A stretch of 39,257 nt of DNA from Gammaproteobacteria bacterium. Lineage in GTDB: Bacteria > Pseudomonadota > Gammaproteobacteria > Xanthomonadales > Rhodanobacteraceae. Shown one piece after another: positions 5,626-30,780 of the stretch. The notes beneath the pieces were generated by a model. That model made no database searches and was not told where the DNA came from. It saw only the letters and a list, made by a program, of their open reading frames with translations. How positions within the stretch are numbered: the first letter of the stretch is position 1; each line of letters opens with the position of its first letter. The translations under genes were made by a program, and so were the position numbers. The stretch lies in the NCBI GenBank assembly GCA_021325195.1, contig JAJPHQ010000116.1:1-39257 (forward strand), written 5' to 3'.

Positions 5626-8000
5626 GGGTGCACGGTTCCGGAAGAAGGATCGGAAATGGGGTGTTCGGCCATTTGCTCCAGCGCCGCGATCTGCCGGTCC
5701 AGCCGCCCGAACGCGTTCATCCGGCGCAGCGCATCGATCTGCTCGATCGCCAGTTCCGTCTTGCCGTGTTTTGCGTAGAGTGCGGCGAGATCCTCGCGGT
5801 AGGCGGCCTCGCCGGGCTCGCCGGCCACCGCGCGCGCGAGGTATTCCATGGCGGCCGCGTCGTCGTGCAACTGGTCGCGCTGGAAATCCGCGTAGGCGCC
5901 CAGCAGGCGCGGGATGGGATGCGGGCGAGACAGCGCCGCCGCGTAGGCCCGCTTCAGCCAGTCGAGATCGAATTCGCAGATGCCGTTGCCGAAGCAGTTG
6001 GTCAGGGAGATCAAGGCCGAGATGTCCTCCTGACTGGTCGGCTGGGTCCCGAGCTTGCGGATCATCGCCCGCCACAACGCCGTGTCGTCGCCACGGTGTC
6101 CGTGGTCGGTGATCATGATCATCGCCTGTTCGGGCAACGACGAAGAACCCGGAATCGCGGCGGCGCGGCGCAGGTATACCCACGATTGCGTCAGTGCCGG
6201 CGATGGCTGGTAATCCGATGCGATCAGCAGCAGGCGTCCGGCCTCGTAATTGGCGCGCGCAGAGGTCGGATGGCGATTGGCCTCGGCAATCGCGAGCCGC
6301 AACGGATTCGACCATTCCTGCGCGCGCAGGTAAGTGACGCTTGCGTACAGCAGCAGCAGCAGCGCGATCACCGTGCCCCTTGCCAGCGGCAGGCGAATCC
6401 GGTTGCGCAGGCCGAGAAGCAGCGAAAACACCGCGAGCAGCACGCCGATCGATCCGAAATACATGCGCTGCTCGTACACCAGTTCCAGCGGCACGATCGT
6501 CGCTGTCAGCAACTGCGAGGCGAAGAACCAGCCGATGCCCAGCGCGACCAGCGGCAGGCGGTTGCGCAGCCACACCGCGATCGCGATCAATGCGGCGAGC
6601 AGTGCGATGGAAGGCAACGTCGTCCACGGCGTGAACAGGCCGGTCGAGGTCACGATCTCGTCGTGATACAGGCTCAGCGTCCCCGGGTCGGGCAGCAGCG
6701 TCCAGTGCAGGTAATCGACCAGCACCCGCGGTTCGGTCAGCAGACGCTGGCCGAGGGTGAAGGTGCGGCCGGCCCAGCTCGCAGGCCGCAACGCCGCGCG
6801 CAACAGCCACGCAAAACCCAGAATCGCCGGCACGAACAGCGTAATGACGAACAACCAGCCGATGCGTTTGTCGAATGATTTTTTTCCTTGCCCAGCCTGC
6901 GGGAGAAGGGAATCGGAATCAGTGGTCGGACCTTCACCGGCACCCCCCTTCTCGTTCGCCATTCCGGGGTTGCGCGCAGCACTGAACCCCGAATCTCCTT
7001 CCTCTCTCGTCATTCCGGGGCCGCGCTCAACACTGAATCCCGAATCCCTTTCCTCACTCGTCGTTCCGGGGCCGCGCGCAGCGCGGAACCCGGAATCCAT
7101 GCCTGGTTCTCCGAAACGCTTCCCGGTGTCTTCGAAGCCGGATTCCGGGTTCTGCCGGTTGATCAGCCCCGGAACCACGAATGGACGTGGCGAAACACTG
7201 CGCCGGAACCGCATCACCAGCGCCTCCGCCAGAAACGCGAATGCCGGCAGCAGCACGGCCGATTCCTTGGCCAGCACACCGATGCCGGCGCCCAGCACGA
7301 TGCCTGCGGTCGCGATGGAGAAACCGCGTTGCTGCCCGGCTGCATCGCTCGCGGTCAGCATCACCCGCCGGCCGTACAGATAGGCCCACAGCCCCGCCAG
7401 CACGAACACCTGGCACAGGCTTTCCATCCGCTGGACCACGTACAGCACGCCCAGCAGGTTGATGGGCAGCAGCAACCACGCTGCCGTCACCGCCAATGCC
7501 AGCCGGGTTGCAGCGGCCTCGTCGATGCAAATTTCCTCTACCCCCGGAGGGGCGGGGGTGCATTGCTCGTCCGATGCCGGATCGGTGACCGAGCCGCCGT
7601 GCGCCGCCGTGCGCCGCCTTCTTCCTTCAGCGGAGGGATGACGACTCGCCACCCGCAGCAGCTCGCGCAGCATCCCGTACAGCAGCACGCCATTGAGCAG
7701 ATGTATCAGCACGTTGGTCAGCTTGAACGGCCACGGATTGCCTTCGCCGAAGTACCAGTTGGCGGCAAAAGTCAGCGATGCCAGTGGACGGTGCAGAAAG
7801 CTGGATGGTGACGAGAGCGCGGCGTTGACCCATGCACCGAGAGTCGATGTGGCGTGAGTAATACGAATCGCCGGGTTGTCAACGATATTGGGGAAATCGT
7901 CGAACACCCAGCCGCCGGTCAACCCGGGCCAGTACACGATAGCGGTGACGATCAGCGCGGCGGCAAGCAGCAGGATCGTGGTCGTGCGGGGAAAGCGCAT
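5622..8000 (-). CDS. TMTC-like GT-C membrane glycosyltransferase with TPR-type tail; carries in-frame repeat insertions
   Basis: The protein has 792 residues: an N-terminal multi-helix part with VFDDFPNI (the acidic GT-C motif after helix 1), HRPLASLTFAANW, FKLTNVLIHLLNGVLLYG and IGWFFASQLL, then a soluble helical TPR-like region over the last 200 or so residues. This layout matches TMTC O-mannosyltransferases and bacterial relatives that glycosylate exported proteins. It is a paralogue of the next gene upstream; both share GQRLLTEPRVL and PWTTLP. ATG 8000 follows that gene's stop by four bases. The cytoplasmic loop encoded by about 6900-7200 is far longer than in the paralogue and consists of DSGFxxxRxPGM-type repeats, which are translated palindromic elements. 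A second loop expansion is encoded near 7520-7650. The acceptor is not known; the nearby pilins are candidates. Confidence 0.82.
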   Translation of the reverse strand: MRFPRTTTILLLAAALIVTAIVYWPGLTGGWVFDDFPNIVDNPAIRITHATSTLGAWVNAALSSPSSFLHRPLASLTFAANWYFGEGNPWPFKLTNVLIHLLNGVLLYGMLRELLRVASRHPSAEGRRRRTAAHGGSVTDPASDEQCTPAPPGVEEICIDEAAATRLALAVTAAWLLLPINLLGVLYVVQRMESLCQVFVLAGLWAYLYGRRVMLTASDAAGQQRGFSIATAGIVLGAGIGVLAKESAVLLPAFAFLAEALVMRFRRSVSPRPFVVPGLINRQNPESGFEDTGKRFGEPGMDSGFRAARGPGTTSEERDSGFSVERGPGMTREEGDSGFSAARNPGMANEKGGAGEGPTTDSDSLLPQAGQGKKSFDKRIGWLFVITLFVPAILGFAWLLRAALRPASWAGRTFTLGQRLLTEPRVLVDYLHWTLLPDPGTLSLYHDEIVTSTGLFTPWTTLPSIALLAALIAIAVWLRNRLPLVALGIGWFFASQLLTATIVPLELVYEQRMYFGSIGVLLAVFSLLLGLRNRIRLPLARGTVIALLLLLYASVTYLRAQEWSNPLRLAIAEANRHPTSARANYEAGRLLLIASDYQPSPALTQSWVYLRRAAAIPGSSSLPEQAMIMITDHGHRGDDTALWRAMIRKLGTQPTSQEDISALISLTNCFGNGICEFDLDWLKRAYAAALSRPHPIPRLLGAYADFQRDQLHDDAAAMEYLARAVAGEPGEAAYREDLAALYAKHGKTELAIEQIDALRRMNAFGRLDRQIAALEQMAEHPISDPSSGTVHP
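6957..7182. repeat. Four ATTCCGGG-type palindromic units inside a coding sequence
   Basis: Units lie at about 6960-6997, 7009-7048, 7060-7100 and, in the opposite orientation, 7137-7180. Each pairs an ATTCCGGGG-like start with a CCCGAAT/CCCGGAAT-like end, the same family found in the intergenic regions of this window. Here all are in frame with the TMTC-like protein and encode a peptide repeated about every 16 residues (DSGFRAARGPG, DSGFSVERGPG, DSGFSAARNPG). The reading frame has been kept through all four. Confidence 0.8.
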
Positions 8001-12837: not shown

Positions 12838-12842
12838 TGTGC

Positions 12843-13110
12843 CGGAAAAGCTGGATTCCGGGTTCGCGCCGCGGTGGAGCCGTGGAGCGCCCCGGAATGG
12901 CAAGCCGGGATAGTTACGCGGCATTATGTGTTGCTCGTCATTCCGGGGCCGCGGGAAGTGCGGGTTGCCGGGAAAGCTGGATTCCGGGTTCGCGCCGCGG
13001 TGGAGCCGTGGAGCGCCCCGGAATGGCAAGCCGGGATAGTTACGCGGCATTGTTTGTTGCTCGTCATTCCGGGATCGATCCGAAGGATCGGAACCCGGAA
13101 TCCAGCTTTC
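12843..13110. repeat. Cluster of ATTCCGGG palindromes with a 126-bp direct duplication
   Basis: Palindromic units lie at about 12851-12900 (reverse), 12936-12973 (forward, cut short), 12975-13027 (reverse) and 13061-13110 (forward, complete with AGCTTTC tail). A block of about 105 bases starting at 12845 is repeated almost exactly 126 bases later, differing by only a few bases near 12926/13052, so the duplication is recent. The cluster fills the gap between rfbB and the GIY-YIG gene; no gene is seen in it. Confidence 0.85.
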
Positions 13111-13158
13111 AGGTTCGTAGCGCGACGGCCTGCGGCCCGCGACAGTCAGGATGCCAGG

Positions 13159-13449
13159 ATGCGTCAACCCTCCGTTTACATTCTTGCCAGCAGGCCGAAT
13201 GGCACGTTGTACATCGGAGTAACGTCCGACTTGATGAAACGGGTGTGGGAACACCGCAATGATGTTGTGAAGGGATTTACGCAACGTTACGGAGTCCACC
13301 GCTTGGTGCACTTCGAGCAATTTCGTTCGATGTTTGAGGCGATCGAGCGTGAGAAGGAATTGAAGAAATGGCGACGTGCCTGGAAGATCGCTCTGATTGA
13401 ACGCTCGAATCCCGCATGGCGCGATTTGTGGCCGGAAATCAGTCAGTAG
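13159..13449 (+). CDS. Single-domain GIY-YIG nuclease, Ssn-like
   Basis: The protein has 96 residues and is a whole GIY-YIG domain with nothing attached. Catalytic and core residues are visible: Y7 in VYILAS, Y18-I19-G20 in TLYIGVTSDL, R28 and H32 in KRVWEH, the metal-binding E63 in AIEREKELKKWRR, and N84 in ERSNPAWRDL. Small GIY-YIG proteins of this type include the Ssn family, described in Neisseria as site-specific single-stranded DNA nucleases acting on a dispersed repeat. ATG 13159 is preceded by CCAGG; the longer upstream frame is translated repeat DNA. It splits the rfb operon and is bracketed on both sides by ATTCCGGG palindromes, the likely candidates for its target. The activity is inferred, not shown. 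Confidence 0.88.
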   Translation: MRQPSVYILASRPNGTLYIGVTSDLMKRVWEHRNDVVKGFTQRYGVHRLVHFEQFRSMFEAIEREKELKKWRRAWKIALIERSNPAWRDLWPEISQ

Positions 13450-13468
13450 GAAAGTGCACGTCGCGTGC

Positions 13469-13668
13469 GAAAAGCTGGATTCCGGGTTCGGCGCTTCGCG
13501 CCGCCCCGGAATGAAGAAGTTGGGTTTCATCGGCAGTGAAGCGGCGCCACCCCGGAATGGCGAGGTTGGGTTTCATCGGCGGTGAAGCGGTGCCACCCGG
13601 AATGACGGAGAACGTGTGGTCATTCCGGGGCCGATCCGAAGGATCGTAACCCGGAATCCAGCTTTCAG
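13469..13668. repeat. ATTCCGGG palindromes and a 46-bp tandem repeat after the GIY-YIG gene
   Basis: A reverse unit lies at 13469-13513, with arms GGCGC/GCGCC. Then come two tandem copies of a 46-base block (from 13519 and from 13565), each starting GTTGGGTTTCATCGGC and ending in a half-palindrome CCCGGAATG. A complete forward unit at 13619-13668 has arms CGATCC/GGATCG and the tail AGCTTTCAG. The last unit closely resembles the forward unit at 13061-13110, so the nuclease gene sits between two matching copies. Confidence 0.82.
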
Positions 13669-20817: not shown

Positions 20818-20955
20818 AGATTCCGGGTTCCGCCGCGATGAGGCCGCGGCGGCCACGAAATGACGAGTTTCAGGAATGTGCGGCGTCTGGAATGGCGGGT
20901 AAATTTTGTTGTCATTCCGGGGCCGGCCGAAGGCCGGAACCCGGAATCTGCTTTC
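20818..20955. repeat. Two ATTCCGGG palindromes between convergent genes
   Basis: A reverse unit (20818-20866, arms CCGCCGCG/CGCGGCGG) is followed by a forward unit (20910-20955, arms CCGGCC/GGCCGG). They fill the gap between the S9 peptidase and dxs, which run towards each other. The strong hairpins might stop or protect both mRNAs. Confidence 0.82.
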
Positions 20956-26300: not shown

Positions 26301-26451
26301 CTCGTCATTCCGGGGCTGCCCGCGCTTTATGCGGGCAGAACCCGGAATCTGCTTTCGCAAGAGCGTGTCTGCGCGCGATAGCTGCCTTCCGTGGCCAAGA
26401 GTTCCGTGGTTCCGGTCGCGATGAATCCGCGCCCGGCCCCGGAATGACGAG
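26301..26451. repeat. Composite palindromic element (forward unit, spacer, reverse unit)
   Basis: The forward unit at 26301-26355 has perfect arms CTGCCCGC/GCGGGCAG between ATTCCGGGG and CCCGGAAT. The reverse unit runs from about 26405 to 26451. The spacer (GTCTGCGCGCGATAGCTGCC onwards) matches that of 24886-25031. It lies between the acyl-CoA dehydrogenase and the GNAT gene. Confidence 0.85.
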
Positions 26452-26500: not shown

Positions 26501-28294
26501 TCAGCCGAACAACGCATCCGGCAGCGCGAACACGCTGTCGCCCCCCGCCTGCATCGCGGCGAGGTGGGTGCGGGTGCGCGGCAGGATGCGGTCGAAGTAG
26601 AAGCGCGCGGTCAGGCGCTTGGCCTGCTTGAAACCTTCGGGGTGCGGCGAGGCTTCCGCCGCGGCCACGCTGCGCGCCCATGCGTAGGCGAGCGCGACGT
26701 AGCCCGAATACATCAGGTAATCGAACGCCGCGGCGCCCACCTCGTCGGCGTTCGAAACCGCGCGCATCCCGATCGCCTGCGTGGCGTCGCCCCATTCCTT
26801 CGCGAGCGCGGAAAGCTTCGAGATGAATCCTTTCAATGATTCGTTTTCGACGTGCCGCGCGCAGAAGGCGCCGAGGCGTTCGAGGAACAACTGCAGGCCC
26901 TCGCCGCGCTGCTGCATGATCTTGCGGCCCAGCAGGTCCAGCGCCTGGATTTGGGTGGTGCCCTCGTAGATCGTGGTGATGCGGGCGTCGCGCAGGTACT
27001 GCTCCATGCCCTGTTCGGCGATGTAGCCGTGGCCGCCGTACACCTGCAGCGCGAGGCTGGTGCACTCGTTGGCGTTCTCGGTCAGCATGGCCTTGATGAT
27101 GGGCGTGAGGAAAGACACCAGCGCCTCGGCGCGTTTCACTTCCTCGGCATCTTGCGAGCGGTGCTGGATGTCCACCAGCGTCGCCGCATACAGGCCCAGC
27201 GCGCGTCCGCCTTCGATCAGCACCTTCTGCGTCAGCAGCATCCGGCGCACGTCGCCGTGCACGATCAAGGGATCGGCCGGCTTGTCCGGAAACTTCGCGC
27301 CCGACAGCGCGCGCATCTGCAGGCGCTCGCGCGCGTACGAGAGCGCGTTCTGGTACGCGCGTTCGCTCAACGCCAATCCCTGCAAGCCGACTGCCAGCCG
27401 CGCGGTGTTCATCATCGTGAACATCGCATTCAGGCCGCGGTTCGGTTCGCCGATCAGCCAGCCCTGCGCGCCGTCGAAATTCATCACGCAGGTGGCGGAG
27501 CCTTTCAGGCCCATCTTGTGCTCGATCGCGCCGCAGCGTACGGCGTTGCGTTCGCCTTGCCTGCCGTCCTTGCCGACCTTGAATTTCGGCACGATGAACA
27601 GCGAAATGCCCTTGACGCCTTTCGGCGCATCCGGCAACCGCGCCAGCACCAGATGCACGATATTGCCGGTGAAGTCGTGCTCGCCCGCGGTGATGAAGAT
27701 CTTGGTGCCGCTGATGGCGTGGCTGCCGTCCTCGTTCGGCTCCGCGCGTGTCTTCAGCAACCCGAGGTCGGAGCCGCAATGCGGCTCGGTCAGGCACATC
27801 GTGCCGGTCCACTCGCCCGAGACGATGCGTTTCAGGAACGCCTCTTTCTGCCAGTCCTCGCCGTGCACGCGCAGCGCTTCGGTCGCGCCGTGCGAGAGCA
27901 GCGGGTAGGTACCCCACGCGAGGTTGGCCGAATCGATCATCTCCTTGACCGGCGCGCCGACGGTTTCCGGAAGGCCCTGTCCGCCGAAGGCTTCCGGCGC
28001 GGTCAGCCCGGCCCAGCCGGCTTCGACGTACTGGTCGTAGGCGTGCTTGAAGCCTTCCGGCGTTTTCACCTCGCCGCTGGACTTGTCGAACGTGCAGCCC
28101 TGCCGGTCGCCGGTTTCGTTCAAGGGCGCCAGCACGGTCTGCGAGAACTTCGCGGCTTCGTCCAGCACGGCGTCGATGGTGTCGCGGGTCAGTCCCTCGC
28201 AGCCGGGCAGCTTCGCGAACAGCTTTTCGACATCCAGCAGGTCGTACAGGCAGAAGCGGATGTCGGCGAGCGGGGCGGTGTAGTGGGTGGTCAT
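26501..28294 (-). CDS. Acyl-CoA dehydrogenase (DmdC-like, with C-terminal extension)
   Basis: The protein has 597 residues, the long subclass with an additional C-terminal helical domain, as in 3-methylmercaptopropionyl-CoA dehydrogenase and relatives. FAD and substrate motifs are CLTEPHCGSDLGLLKTRA and YGGHGYIAEQGMEQYLRDAR. The catalytic base is E444 in TIYEGTTQIQALDLLGRK. It oxidises an acyl-CoA to the enoyl-CoA and passes electrons to ETF. ATG 28294 (MTTHYTAPLADIRF) was chosen; the longer frame to 28519 runs through palindromic repeats. The true substrate may simply be fatty acyl-CoA. Confidence 0.94.
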   Translation of the reverse strand: MTTHYTAPLADIRFCLYDLLDVEKLFAKLPGCEGLTRDTIDAVLDEAAKFSQTVLAPLNETGDRQGCTFDKSSGEVKTPEGFKHAYDQYVEAGWAGLTAPEAFGGQGLPETVGAPVKEMIDSANLAWGTYPLLSHGATEALRVHGEDWQKEAFLKRIVSGEWTGTMCLTEPHCGSDLGLLKTRAEPNEDGSHAISGTKIFITAGEHDFTGNIVHLVLARLPDAPKGVKGISLFIVPKFKVGKDGRQGERNAVRCGAIEHKMGLKGSATCVMNFDGAQGWLIGEPNRGLNAMFTMMNTARLAVGLQGLALSERAYQNALSYARERLQMRALSGAKFPDKPADPLIVHGDVRRMLLTQKVLIEGGRALGLYAATLVDIQHRSQDAEEVKRAEALVSFLTPIIKAMLTENANECTSLALQVYGGHGYIAEQGMEQYLRDARITTIYEGTTQIQALDLLGRKIMQQRGEGLQLFLERLGAFCARHVENESLKGFISKLSALAKEWGDATQAIGMRAVSNADEVGAAAFDYLMYSGYVALAYAWARSVAAAEASPHPEGFKQAKRLTARFYFDRILPRTRTHLAAMQAGGDSVFALPDALFG

Positions 28295-28359
28295 TGGGTT
28301 CCGTGTCAACGATTGTGATGAAGCGTGGCGATTGATCCACGGCGCCGGTCTTCCTGTTT

Positions 28360-28482
28360 CGTCATTCCGGTTCCATCGCCATCGGCGATGGAACCGGGAA
28401 TCCAGCGCCTGACCGAACCAGAGCCGAGACGCTGGATTCCGGGTTCCGCCCGCAAACACCGCGGGCGGCCCCGGAATGACAA
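28360..28482. repeat. Pair of ATTCCGG palindromes facing each other
   Basis: The forward unit (28360-28405) has the 12-bp perfect arm GGTTCCATCGCC/GGCGATGGAACC. The reverse unit (28431-28482) has the arm CCGCCCGC/GCGGGCGG. The inner arms share no sequence, yet both fold perfectly. They separate the acyl-CoA dehydrogenase from the LEA-type lipoprotein gene. Confidence 0.87.
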
Positions 28483-28522
28483 CCAAATACATGTTTGCCT
28501 GCGACACGTGGCGGTGCATTCA

Positions 28523-29020
28523 CTACCGCCAGACGTTGGACACCCCCGGCACCGGCGAAAGGTAGCCCTTGCCGTCCAGCTTGAATGGCTGCGCGCTGCC
28601 GTTGGTGCCCTTGCCCACCGACAGCGTACCCTTCAGCTCGTATGCGACCGCATTGCCTTTCGCGCCGGCCAGCACGGCGCTGCCGGCCGGATCGGGCTTG
28701 AACACCGCGGTGGCGATGTCGGCGTCCATCGCGGGAATGTCGAGCGCGGGCGAAATCGCGACGTGGCCCGCGGGTTTGCCGTTCAGGCTCAGCTCCGCGT
28801 CGATCGCGTACACGTGCATGCCGGTGTCGTAGCTGTAGTTCTGGAAGCGCACCACCGCGGCCCAGGTGCCGTCGCTGTTGACGGTGAGCTGCTGGATGCC
28901 GGCAGTGGGCGGTTGCAGCCGGGTGCCCAGGCTGGCGCAGGCGGCCAGCGCGACCACGAGGACCATCAGCGCCACGCCAGCAGATGCGCGCGCGCGGAGG
29001 CGAAGGGACTTGGCGATCAT
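28523..29020 (-). CDS. LEA type 2 / WHy-domain lipoprotein
   Basis: The protein has 165 residues. A lipobox (VVALAAC) ends a 27-residue lipoprotein signal, so the mature protein is anchored by cysteine 28. The rest (LQPPTAGIQQLTVNSDGTWA, VRFQNYSYDTGMHVYAIDAE, LNGKPAGHVAISPALDIPA) has the immunoglobulin-like pattern of the LEA14/water-stress-hypersensitive family, which is linked to desiccation tolerance in plants and is of unknown role in bacteria. GGAG stands before ATG 29020. It begins 43 bases after modC and may share its transcript. Confidence 0.78.
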   Translation of the reverse strand: MIAKSLRLRARASAGVALMVLVVALAACASLGTRLQPPTAGIQQLTVNSDGTWAAVVRFQNYSYDTGMHVYAIDAELSLNGKPAGHVAISPALDIPAMDADIATAVFKPDPAGSAVLAGAKGNAVAYELKGTLSVGKGTNGSAQPFKLDGKGYLSPVPGVSNVWR

Positions 29021-30581: not shown

Positions 30582-30780
30582 TCGTCATTCCGGGGCGCCT
30601 GCGGCTTCATCGCAGGCGAACCCGGAATCCATGTTTCCGTCTGACAAAGATCAAGATAGATGGACTCAGCGCGTCGCGCAGCTCGCCCTTCGGGCATCGG
30701 CTTCGCCGATGTTCGCTCTGGCATCCTGCCCCCGCAGTCGGGTTCTGCCCGCAAGCAGCGCGGGCGGCCCCGGAATGACA
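30582..30780. repeat. Pair of ATTCCGGG palindromes between modA and modB
   Basis: The forward unit (30582-30632) has the perfect arm CGCCTGCG/CGCAGGCG. The reverse unit (30733-30780) has TGCCCGC/GCGGGCG. They are about 100 bases apart. They occupy most of the 349-base gap 30467-30815, which holds no gene, and could lower read-through from modA into modBC. Confidence 0.85.

Follow-up and report, generated by a model that had tools for sequence, protein, structure and literature searches.

The window analysed here covers 39,257 nucleotides of contig JAJPHQ010000116.1 and belongs to a 2.92-Mb genome in 118 contigs (Rhodanobacteraceae, Gammaproteobacteria; G000 in the comparisons below). On its forward strand, rfbB, coding for dTDP-glucose 4,6-dehydratase (TIGR01181; 11797–12837, the tested stretch and not the gene start), is followed by rfbA, coding for glucose-1-phosphate thymidylyltransferase (TIGR01207; 13711–14589), and then by rfbC (TIGR01221). 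As the earlier note had read it, the rfb operon is split between rfbB and rfbA by a small nuclease gene (13159–13449, forward strand), which codes for 96 amino acids plus a stop. Its reading frame extends upstream to a GTG at 12874, and the homologues support the ATG at 13159 as the probable start. The sole Pfam match of the protein was the GIY-YIG domain PF01541 (52.9 bits at a cut-off of 22.6), no HUH tyrosine transposase being recognised, and a total length of 96 amino acids leaves no room for a second domain. Five residues (Y7, Y18, R28, E65 and N84), which we take to be the catalytic positions, were unchanged across an alignment of 20 homologues, and the AlphaFold2 model was confident (pLDDT 95.6). 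The protein has thus the stand-alone domain of an Ssn-type nuclease, and its first description as a single-domain GIY-YIG protein with all catalytic residues was borne out.

Only one PDB entry matched the model below an E-value of 0.001, the UPF0213 protein 1zg2 (E 3.6e-4), followed by another UPF0213-type protein and then by the GIY-YIG domains of Slx1 and UvrC. The group I intron endonuclease family TIGR01453 scored 20.2 bits, below its cut-off of 56.05. The phage collection searched with the protein gave no match, leaving a phage origin of the gene without support there; phmmer matches to WD-40 proteins, of which no stretch passed, were regarded as an artefact. Ssn-family proteins of Neisseria are reportedly single-domain GIY-YIG, sequence-specific single-stranded DNA nucleases which recognise a dispersed repeat and affect natural transformation. 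The proposed kinship with the Neisseria protein was supported by the homologue of Neisseria gonorrhoeae, 59.8% identical over 92 amino acids and sitting among CGTC-1/dRS3-type repeats on both sides; it is probably the published ssn gene.

The hairpin nearest to the gene on its upstream side (13062–13106, forward) consists of a CGTC tag (13062–13065), outer stems at 13066–13073 and 13094–13101, and the tail CCAGC. The nearest one downstream (13474–13516, reverse strand; hairpin 13479–13512) is inverted, with the tail GCTGG towards the gene and a degenerate tag, CTTC. The gene had been described as lying between two near-identical forward palindromes; such a pair exists (13063–13112 and 13619–13668, 94% identity), but since the nearest downstream hairpin is inverted, it is an inverted pair, and not two forward copies, that encloses the gene. 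Two degenerate half-hairpins (13551–13603, reverse strand; CCCGGAAT at 13551 and 13596) and a second, forward hairpin (13619–13662; hairpin 13622–13657) also lie downstream. Just upstream of the gene, a tandem duplication (12840–13073, repeat family D4) comprises two 108-nt copies at 126-bp spacing (12840–12947 and 12966–13073; 97% identical), each made of a hairpin and a half-hairpin. The inverted hairpins of the first and second unit occupy 12850–12901 (hairpin 12855–12898) and 12976–13027 (hairpin 12981–13024) on the reverse strand, and this duplication accounts for part of the upstream crowding. Tandem arrays of degenerate hairpin units adjoin the nuclease gene in two other genomes of the genus as well, G005 (both sides; L071, L003) and G015 (L362).

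Further hairpins are dispersed over the window: three in forward orientation at 20911–20952 (hairpin 20914–20947), 26304–26353 (26307–26348) and 30584–30633 (30587–30628), a pair in inverted orientation at 28361–28482 (28364–28401 with a variant stem, and 28436–28477), and a cluster of degenerate hairpins at 6958–7181, three of them at 51-bp spacing. Exact hairpins of the form ATTCCGGG(N10-40)CCCGGAAT number nine in the window, with none in 100 dinucleotide shuffles, and 46 across the 2.92-Mb genome, with none in the control. The earlier figure of about two dozen copies is reached only by counting half-hairpins and degenerate copies as well; allowing up to one mismatch per arm gave 17 pairings in the window, some overlapping or by chance. 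Four window hairpins folded as single-stranded DNA had energies of −13.5 to −20.1 kcal/mol (z −4.0 to −5.6). Rfam gave no match in the window at gathering thresholds.

The structure of the repeat was compared in 84 copies sampled from five genomes of the genus (24 of 46 in G000, 15 of 15 in G005, 12 of 63 in G015, 18 of 66 in G009 and 15 of 85 in G013). An unpaired, CGTC-like tag was recognised by its GTC in 81 of the 84, a figure slightly inflated because copies with GTC at one end only were oriented with it on the 5' side. The outer stem ATTCCGGG, whose invariance in this sample is by construction of the search, fits the 8–9-bp stem beginning with AT of CGTC-REPs. According to excerpts of Di Nocera et al. 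(2013; PMC3733652), the loops of CGTC-REPs have 4–5 bases with few exceptions, whereas here the outer arms are 16–30 bases apart and enclose an internal loop followed by a variable inner stem. For this reason we call the hairpin an extended variant and do not assign it to any of the four named CGTC-REP families. It shares with them, as far as the same excerpts go, the CGTC-type tag, an 8-bp stem starting with AT, the occurrence in inverted pairs and, in 19 of the 24 G000 copies sampled, a CCA tail.

An asymmetric G/AA internal loop closed by a C-G pair was present in 67 of the 84 copies, and 61 different inner hairpins were found among these 67. In the 41 copies that were long enough, 6.44 of 7 inner-stem positions were paired, compared to 3.31 when partners were exchanged between copies (maximum 4.07 in 2000 shuffles). 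The genus variant is a hairpin with a fixed outer stem, a G/AA internal loop and an inner stem that varies yet is predicted to stay paired. Our guess is that strand-switch correction of imperfect palindromes might change the inner stem while keeping it paired. The tails differ between genomes: CCA ends 32 of the 84 copies overall, CGG prevails in G005 and G013, and CTG in G015. In the three sampled genomes with a matching gene, the tail of the gene's own hairpin was also the commonest one (CCA in 19 of 24 copies in G000, CGG in 15 of 15 in G005, CTG in 7 of 12 in G015), the copies flanking the gene being counted in and G012 not being among the samples. Few genomes beyond the genus contain the exact hairpin: all 16 genus genomes had 2 to 127 copies; outside the genus, four of 84 relatives had 1 to 7 copies, one of these counts being equalled by its control.

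The combination of gene and hairpins recurs far from the rfb operon. Loci were assembled from relatives (30), from a species collection (80 named loci, the top-ranking ones among no fewer than 583) and from 40 further stretches; 133 family loci were tested, while 12 distant homologues or fragments, one locus without a match and four short of flank were set apart. By eye, GTCAT-stem-ATCC preceded the gene in most of the first 30 loci, with the reverse complement following it. By a test for tag and stem, a tagged hairpin lay within 400 bp upstream in 108 of the 133 loci, an inverted one downstream in 106 and both in 90, an undercount, as the tag pattern misses real repeats visible by eye (Novosphingobium, Planktothrix). 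Randomly placed controls in such loci had hairpins on both sides in 0.8% of cases (n = 2020, from the first 106 loci, 75 of which had both). Among the 12 distant GIY-YIG proteins or fragments, two had an upstream hairpin (both fragments of family genes), one a downstream hairpin and none both. In a motif-free test, 105 of 131 loci had inverted repeats spanning the gene that exceeded the 99% control level. The loci are not independent, since some sites are common to relatives and the 80 named loci were selected as the best from a larger set. The nearest hairpins turn their tags outward on both sides in 68 of the 133 loci and inward on both sides in 18, with 19 mixed, 25 one-sided and three without any; hairpins of the opposite orientation also occurred within 400 bp upstream in 42 of 106 loci and downstream in 48 of 106.

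By record title, the loci with hairpins on both sides include ones from Anaerolineae, Nitrospirae, Dehalococcoidia, Bipolaricaulota, Elusimicrobia and Zixiibacteriota in addition to Proteobacteria, many of them being metagenome bins. The nuclease gene of Azospirillum lipoferum 4B lies inside CGTCATCCCCGC pairs and splits sufB from sufC (L377:1351–1969); that of Novosphingobium aromaticivorans is enclosed by CGTCGCCCCGTG copies in inverted orientation; that of Sinorhizobium meliloti adjoins CCTCATCCCTGTG copies; and that of N. gonorrhoeae is found among CGTCATTCCCGC repeats. All four are species or genera named in the excerpts of PMC3733652, and in A. lipoferum and N. gonorrhoeae tagged hairpins flank the gene on both sides. 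The rfb case is thus one instance of a common layout. A plasmid collection had 33 records with a match to the protein; among six of these that were inspected, the tag pattern gave hairpins on both sides in three and upstream only in one, and the other two had repeats on both sides by eye only. Two records of this collection, NZ_CP119140.1 and NZ_AP026896.1, are chromosome-sized (2.2 and 4.9 Mb) yet filed as plasmids. On a Planktothrix agardhii plasmid, a homologue lies among TGTCATTCTGAG repeats between a MmeI-type restriction enzyme and DISARM drmA (L381:1501–1785).

The two hairpins of a gene resemble each other: in 91 loci with hairpins on both sides, left-to-right similarity was 0.912, as opposed to 0.757 after permutation (maximum of 10,000 permutations 0.791). 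Protein identity and hairpin similarity were correlated over all loci (Mantel r 0.368; 0 of 5000 permutations) and for the genus alone (r 0.552; 0 of 10,000; 15 copies), the rows of these tests not being independent because insertion sites are shared. On a tree of 122 proteins, hairpin stem class required 21 changes in comparison with 52.0 after shuffling (0 of 200 as low); this tree is based on 95 columns, 68 of its 116 inner branches are unresolved, and 11 rows with differing sides were left out. Within the genus, the gene copies with ATTCCGGGG hairpins (G000, G012, G005 and G015) are mutually nearest proteins, and those of the CCCGC and CCGGC classes group apart from them. The exception is L006, with hairpins of one class and its nearest genus proteins of another. 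Comparison at the sequence level shows, then, a layout recurring in several phyla, hairpins matched from side to side and a hairpin class that follows the descent of the nuclease. Together with the co-occurrence described below, this upholds the specific nuclease–repeat pair that the earlier note had proposed.

Co-occurrence was examined in 100 relatives, in which hairpins were counted by a short-stem pattern and the genus pattern. A protein match was found in 56 genomes, 41 of them close in our own reading; the other 15, distant or partial, were treated as gene-less. At least five hairpins were present in 33 of the 41 gene-bearing genomes versus 16 of the 59 without the gene (p 1.8e-7), in 22 of 31 versus 10 of 53 outside the genus, and in 19 of 24 versus 4 of 27 after collapsing to genera. 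The remaining eight of the 41 had fewer than five, the patterns used missing some stem classes. Within the 16 genus genomes, no dependence of hairpin number on a matching gene was found (p 0.43): the counts were 46, 15, 50 and 63 with the gene, and 35, 2, 39, 127, 14, 29, 22, 66, 2, 7, 85 and 21 without it. The pattern that the earlier note had named as counting against its view, relatives with the repeats but never the gene, was thus in part observed: 12 of the 16 genus genomes, mostly drafts, have 2–127 hairpins and no gene of the matching class. Either the hairpins outlast the gene, or the drafts miss it. A simple scheme in which the gene drives the repeats is disfavoured by this lack of dependence, and filled and bare sites cannot be polarised.

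The content of the rfbB–rfbA junction, readable in 11 of the 16 genus genomes, alternates between species. It consists of the GIY-YIG gene with hairpins in G000 and G005, a DUF559 reading frame beside CCCTCACCC/CCCTCTCCC palindromes in G006, G007, G012 and G013, a third palindrome pair in G009 and G014, another palindrome in G010, 17 bp in G011, and a hairpin pair without a gene in G015. In G015, the nuclease gene occupies instead a site where the window has hairpins only (20820–20948), the junction orthologous to the hairpin at 20911–20952 being hairpin-gene-hairpin there. At an ABC-transporter junction, G004 has the order hairpin-gene-hairpin; in the 14 genomes with both flanks located, the junction held the GIY-YIG unit once, was bare (about 30 bp) seven times, had gene-less DUF559-type palindrome pairs four times and other sequence twice. 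The gene is present at apparently the same junction in G009 (one flank only) and in G046, a genome of another genus, for which reason the bare junctions may be losses. Several insertion sites are common to genera, e.g., beside thiD and valS (gene names by eye from the flanks), so that movement appears rare and frequent movement is disfavoured. The suggestion that the gene moved together with the repeats is in this way favoured by the alternating rfb junction and by the filled G004 site with 7 of 14 genomes bare, but opposed by the filled G046 site and the sites common to genera. By eye, three further window junctions had palindromes of different families in different species; in one of these comparisons, at 28280–28540 of the window (L369–L375), the families differ between species of the genus.

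The DUF559 genes at the rfb junction show a second, unrelated putative nuclease with a GIY-YIG-like layout but other palindromes. The G013 copy matched PF04480 with 134 bits, and those of G006, G007 and G012 are 64–67% identical to it; both at this junction (L047, L048, L049, L052) and in further loci (L226–L255; L286–L315), DUF559 genes stand between inverted CCCTCTCCC-type palindromes. Inverted repeats across the gene exceeded control levels in 22 of 29 loci from relatives, the query's own included, and in 24 of 30 loci class-wide (0 of 130 in the class-wide control). At least one gene occurs in both sets, and part of the class-wide repeats differ in sequence. Among the 100 relatives, 36 of 47 genomes with DUF559 had at least five CCCTCTCCC palindromes, compared with 6 of 53 without it (p 1.6e-11), four genomes with partial or repeat-encoded matches being treated as lacking it. 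In L049 (1420–1500) and in many genomes, the palindrome encodes part of the DUF559 C-terminus, so that query residues 115–135 match short stretches at dozens of other places. Excerpts of PMC12907096 describe DUF559 as Vsr-like and do not mention palindromes.

In a second GIY-YIG subfamily, TTCGCCCTGAG/TCGAAGG-type repeats flank the gene on both sides (L191–L195, L162, L165, L256, L260). In a class-wide motif-free test, 9 of 36 GIY-YIG loci passed (control 1 of 207), namely 8 of 11 with at least 50% identity to this TTCG subfamily and 1 of 25 below that identity. The view that distant GIY-YIG proteins are without repeats was consequently wrong for one subfamily, with tagged hairpins on both sides in 0 of 12 but 8 of 11 exceeding their own control level (50 control placements) in the motif-free test, owing to another repeat family. 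The 25 remote loci are presumably YhbQ-like. The window protein has the fold of UPF0213/YhbQ-like proteins, 1zg2 being its best PDB match, yet it is not favoured as an ordinary relative of them, 24 of the 25 being without inverted repeats across the gene.

Our preferred reading, at a probability of about 0.7, is an Ssn-type GIY-YIG nuclease dedicated to CGTC-tagged REP hairpins, the unit being hairpin, gene and inverted hairpin, mostly with the tags outward and the tails towards the gene. The protein would recognise the folded hairpin on single-stranded DNA by its tag, outer stem, G/AA internal loop and tail, and would nick beside it, as RAYT enzymes do with GTAG-REPs. With less certainty, cutting and repair could copy single hairpins, pairs and, rarely, the whole unit into permissive intergenic junctions; GIY-YIG enzymes are hydrolytic, so strand transfer by such an enzyme alone is not expected. 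The nuclease would be long-lived and mostly inherited, and the hairpins would persist where it has been lost. Cleavage, transposition and a role in transformation are what we infer for this protein. GIY-YIG domains occur in homing endonucleases too, and the gene might be one of these, residing within inverted hairpin pairs, cutting gene-less pairs and being copied into them by repair, the hairpins themselves spreading otherwise. Its place in an inverted pair, the gene-less inverted pair at the rfb junction of G015, the G015 gene standing where G000 has only hairpins and the weak match to TIGR01453 would all agree with homing. We nevertheless hold it to be unlikely, as intact hairpins on both sides would remain cuttable, the window hairpins at the site of the G015 gene face their tags inward, unlike the usual gene-bearing pair, half of the readable genomes (7 of 14) are bare and hairpin-less at the G004 site, and the TIGR01453 score is far below the cut-off.

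It is likewise doubtful that the nuclease serves to restrict or shape natural transformation, single strands being cut at hairpins as they enter, with the repeats as self-marks or break points and movement incidental. The reported role of Ssn in Neisseria and the presence of the gonococcal homologue among the same repeat superfamily speak for this, but the bracketing by hairpins in 90 of 133 loci and the matching of classes are left unexplained by it. Hairpins acting as terminators or RNA stabilisers, with the gene a neutral passenger in repeat-rich junctions, would fit their intergenic location and the other palindrome families filling the same junctions in relatives. Such a coincidence is very improbable in view of the 0.8% of control placements with hairpins on both sides, the class matching with its tree concordance and the 24 of 25 remote GIY-YIG relatives devoid of flanking inverted repeats. 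Beyond the dedicated nuclease itself, we lean slightly towards a wider interpretation, in which a small orphan nuclease with its own palindrome family arose repeatedly from unrelated folds: HUH (RAYT) with GTAG-REPs, GIY-YIG with CGTC-REPs, the second GIY-YIG subfamily with TTCG-type repeats, and DUF559 (Vsr-like, PD-(D/E)XK) with the CCCTCTCCC type, the systems alternating at shared junctions between genes.

A pairing between Ssn and repeats has reportedly been published already, and the novelty of the nuclease–repeat pairing itself is uncertain. The present case resembles the Ssn family in its single GIY-YIG domain and through the gonococcal homologue among CGTC-type repeats; it differs in the hairpin class, with a long two-part stem, and its nuclease activity is predicted. 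Among the matches listed from open-licence literature, a precedent did not appear for the CGTC-REP identification, the two-part hairpin or the DUF559 parallel; excerpts in that set contained no link of GIY-YIG or DUF559 to REPs, and the passages of the RepRanger paper (PMC12306157) contained no GIY-YIG. A further likeness is to RAYT/TnpA-REP systems (REPtrons) with GTAG-REPs, for which excerpts describe an enzyme gene with tagged REPs of its own on either side (PMC3733652), enzyme–REP co-evolution and an internal bulge in one REP group (PMC8266576). Unlike there, the enzyme here is of the GIY-YIG and not the HUH tyrosine type, and the tag is CGTC instead of GTAG. For CGTC-REPs, no dedicated enzyme had been found according to excerpts of Di Nocera et al. 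(2013; PMC3733652), and our data suggest an Ssn-type enzyme as the missing partner of this widespread hairpin class. A matched 96-amino-acid protein and hairpin, class-specific and present in several phyla, makes their enzyme question testable by binding and cleavage, and the two-part hairpins of the genus, whose inner stems differ while keeping their pairing, offer a ready-made series of natural mutants for finding out which features the enzyme reads. Should DUF559 act in a similar way, enzymes could be assigned to several common bacterial repeat families, and this domain, so far without a known function, would acquire one.
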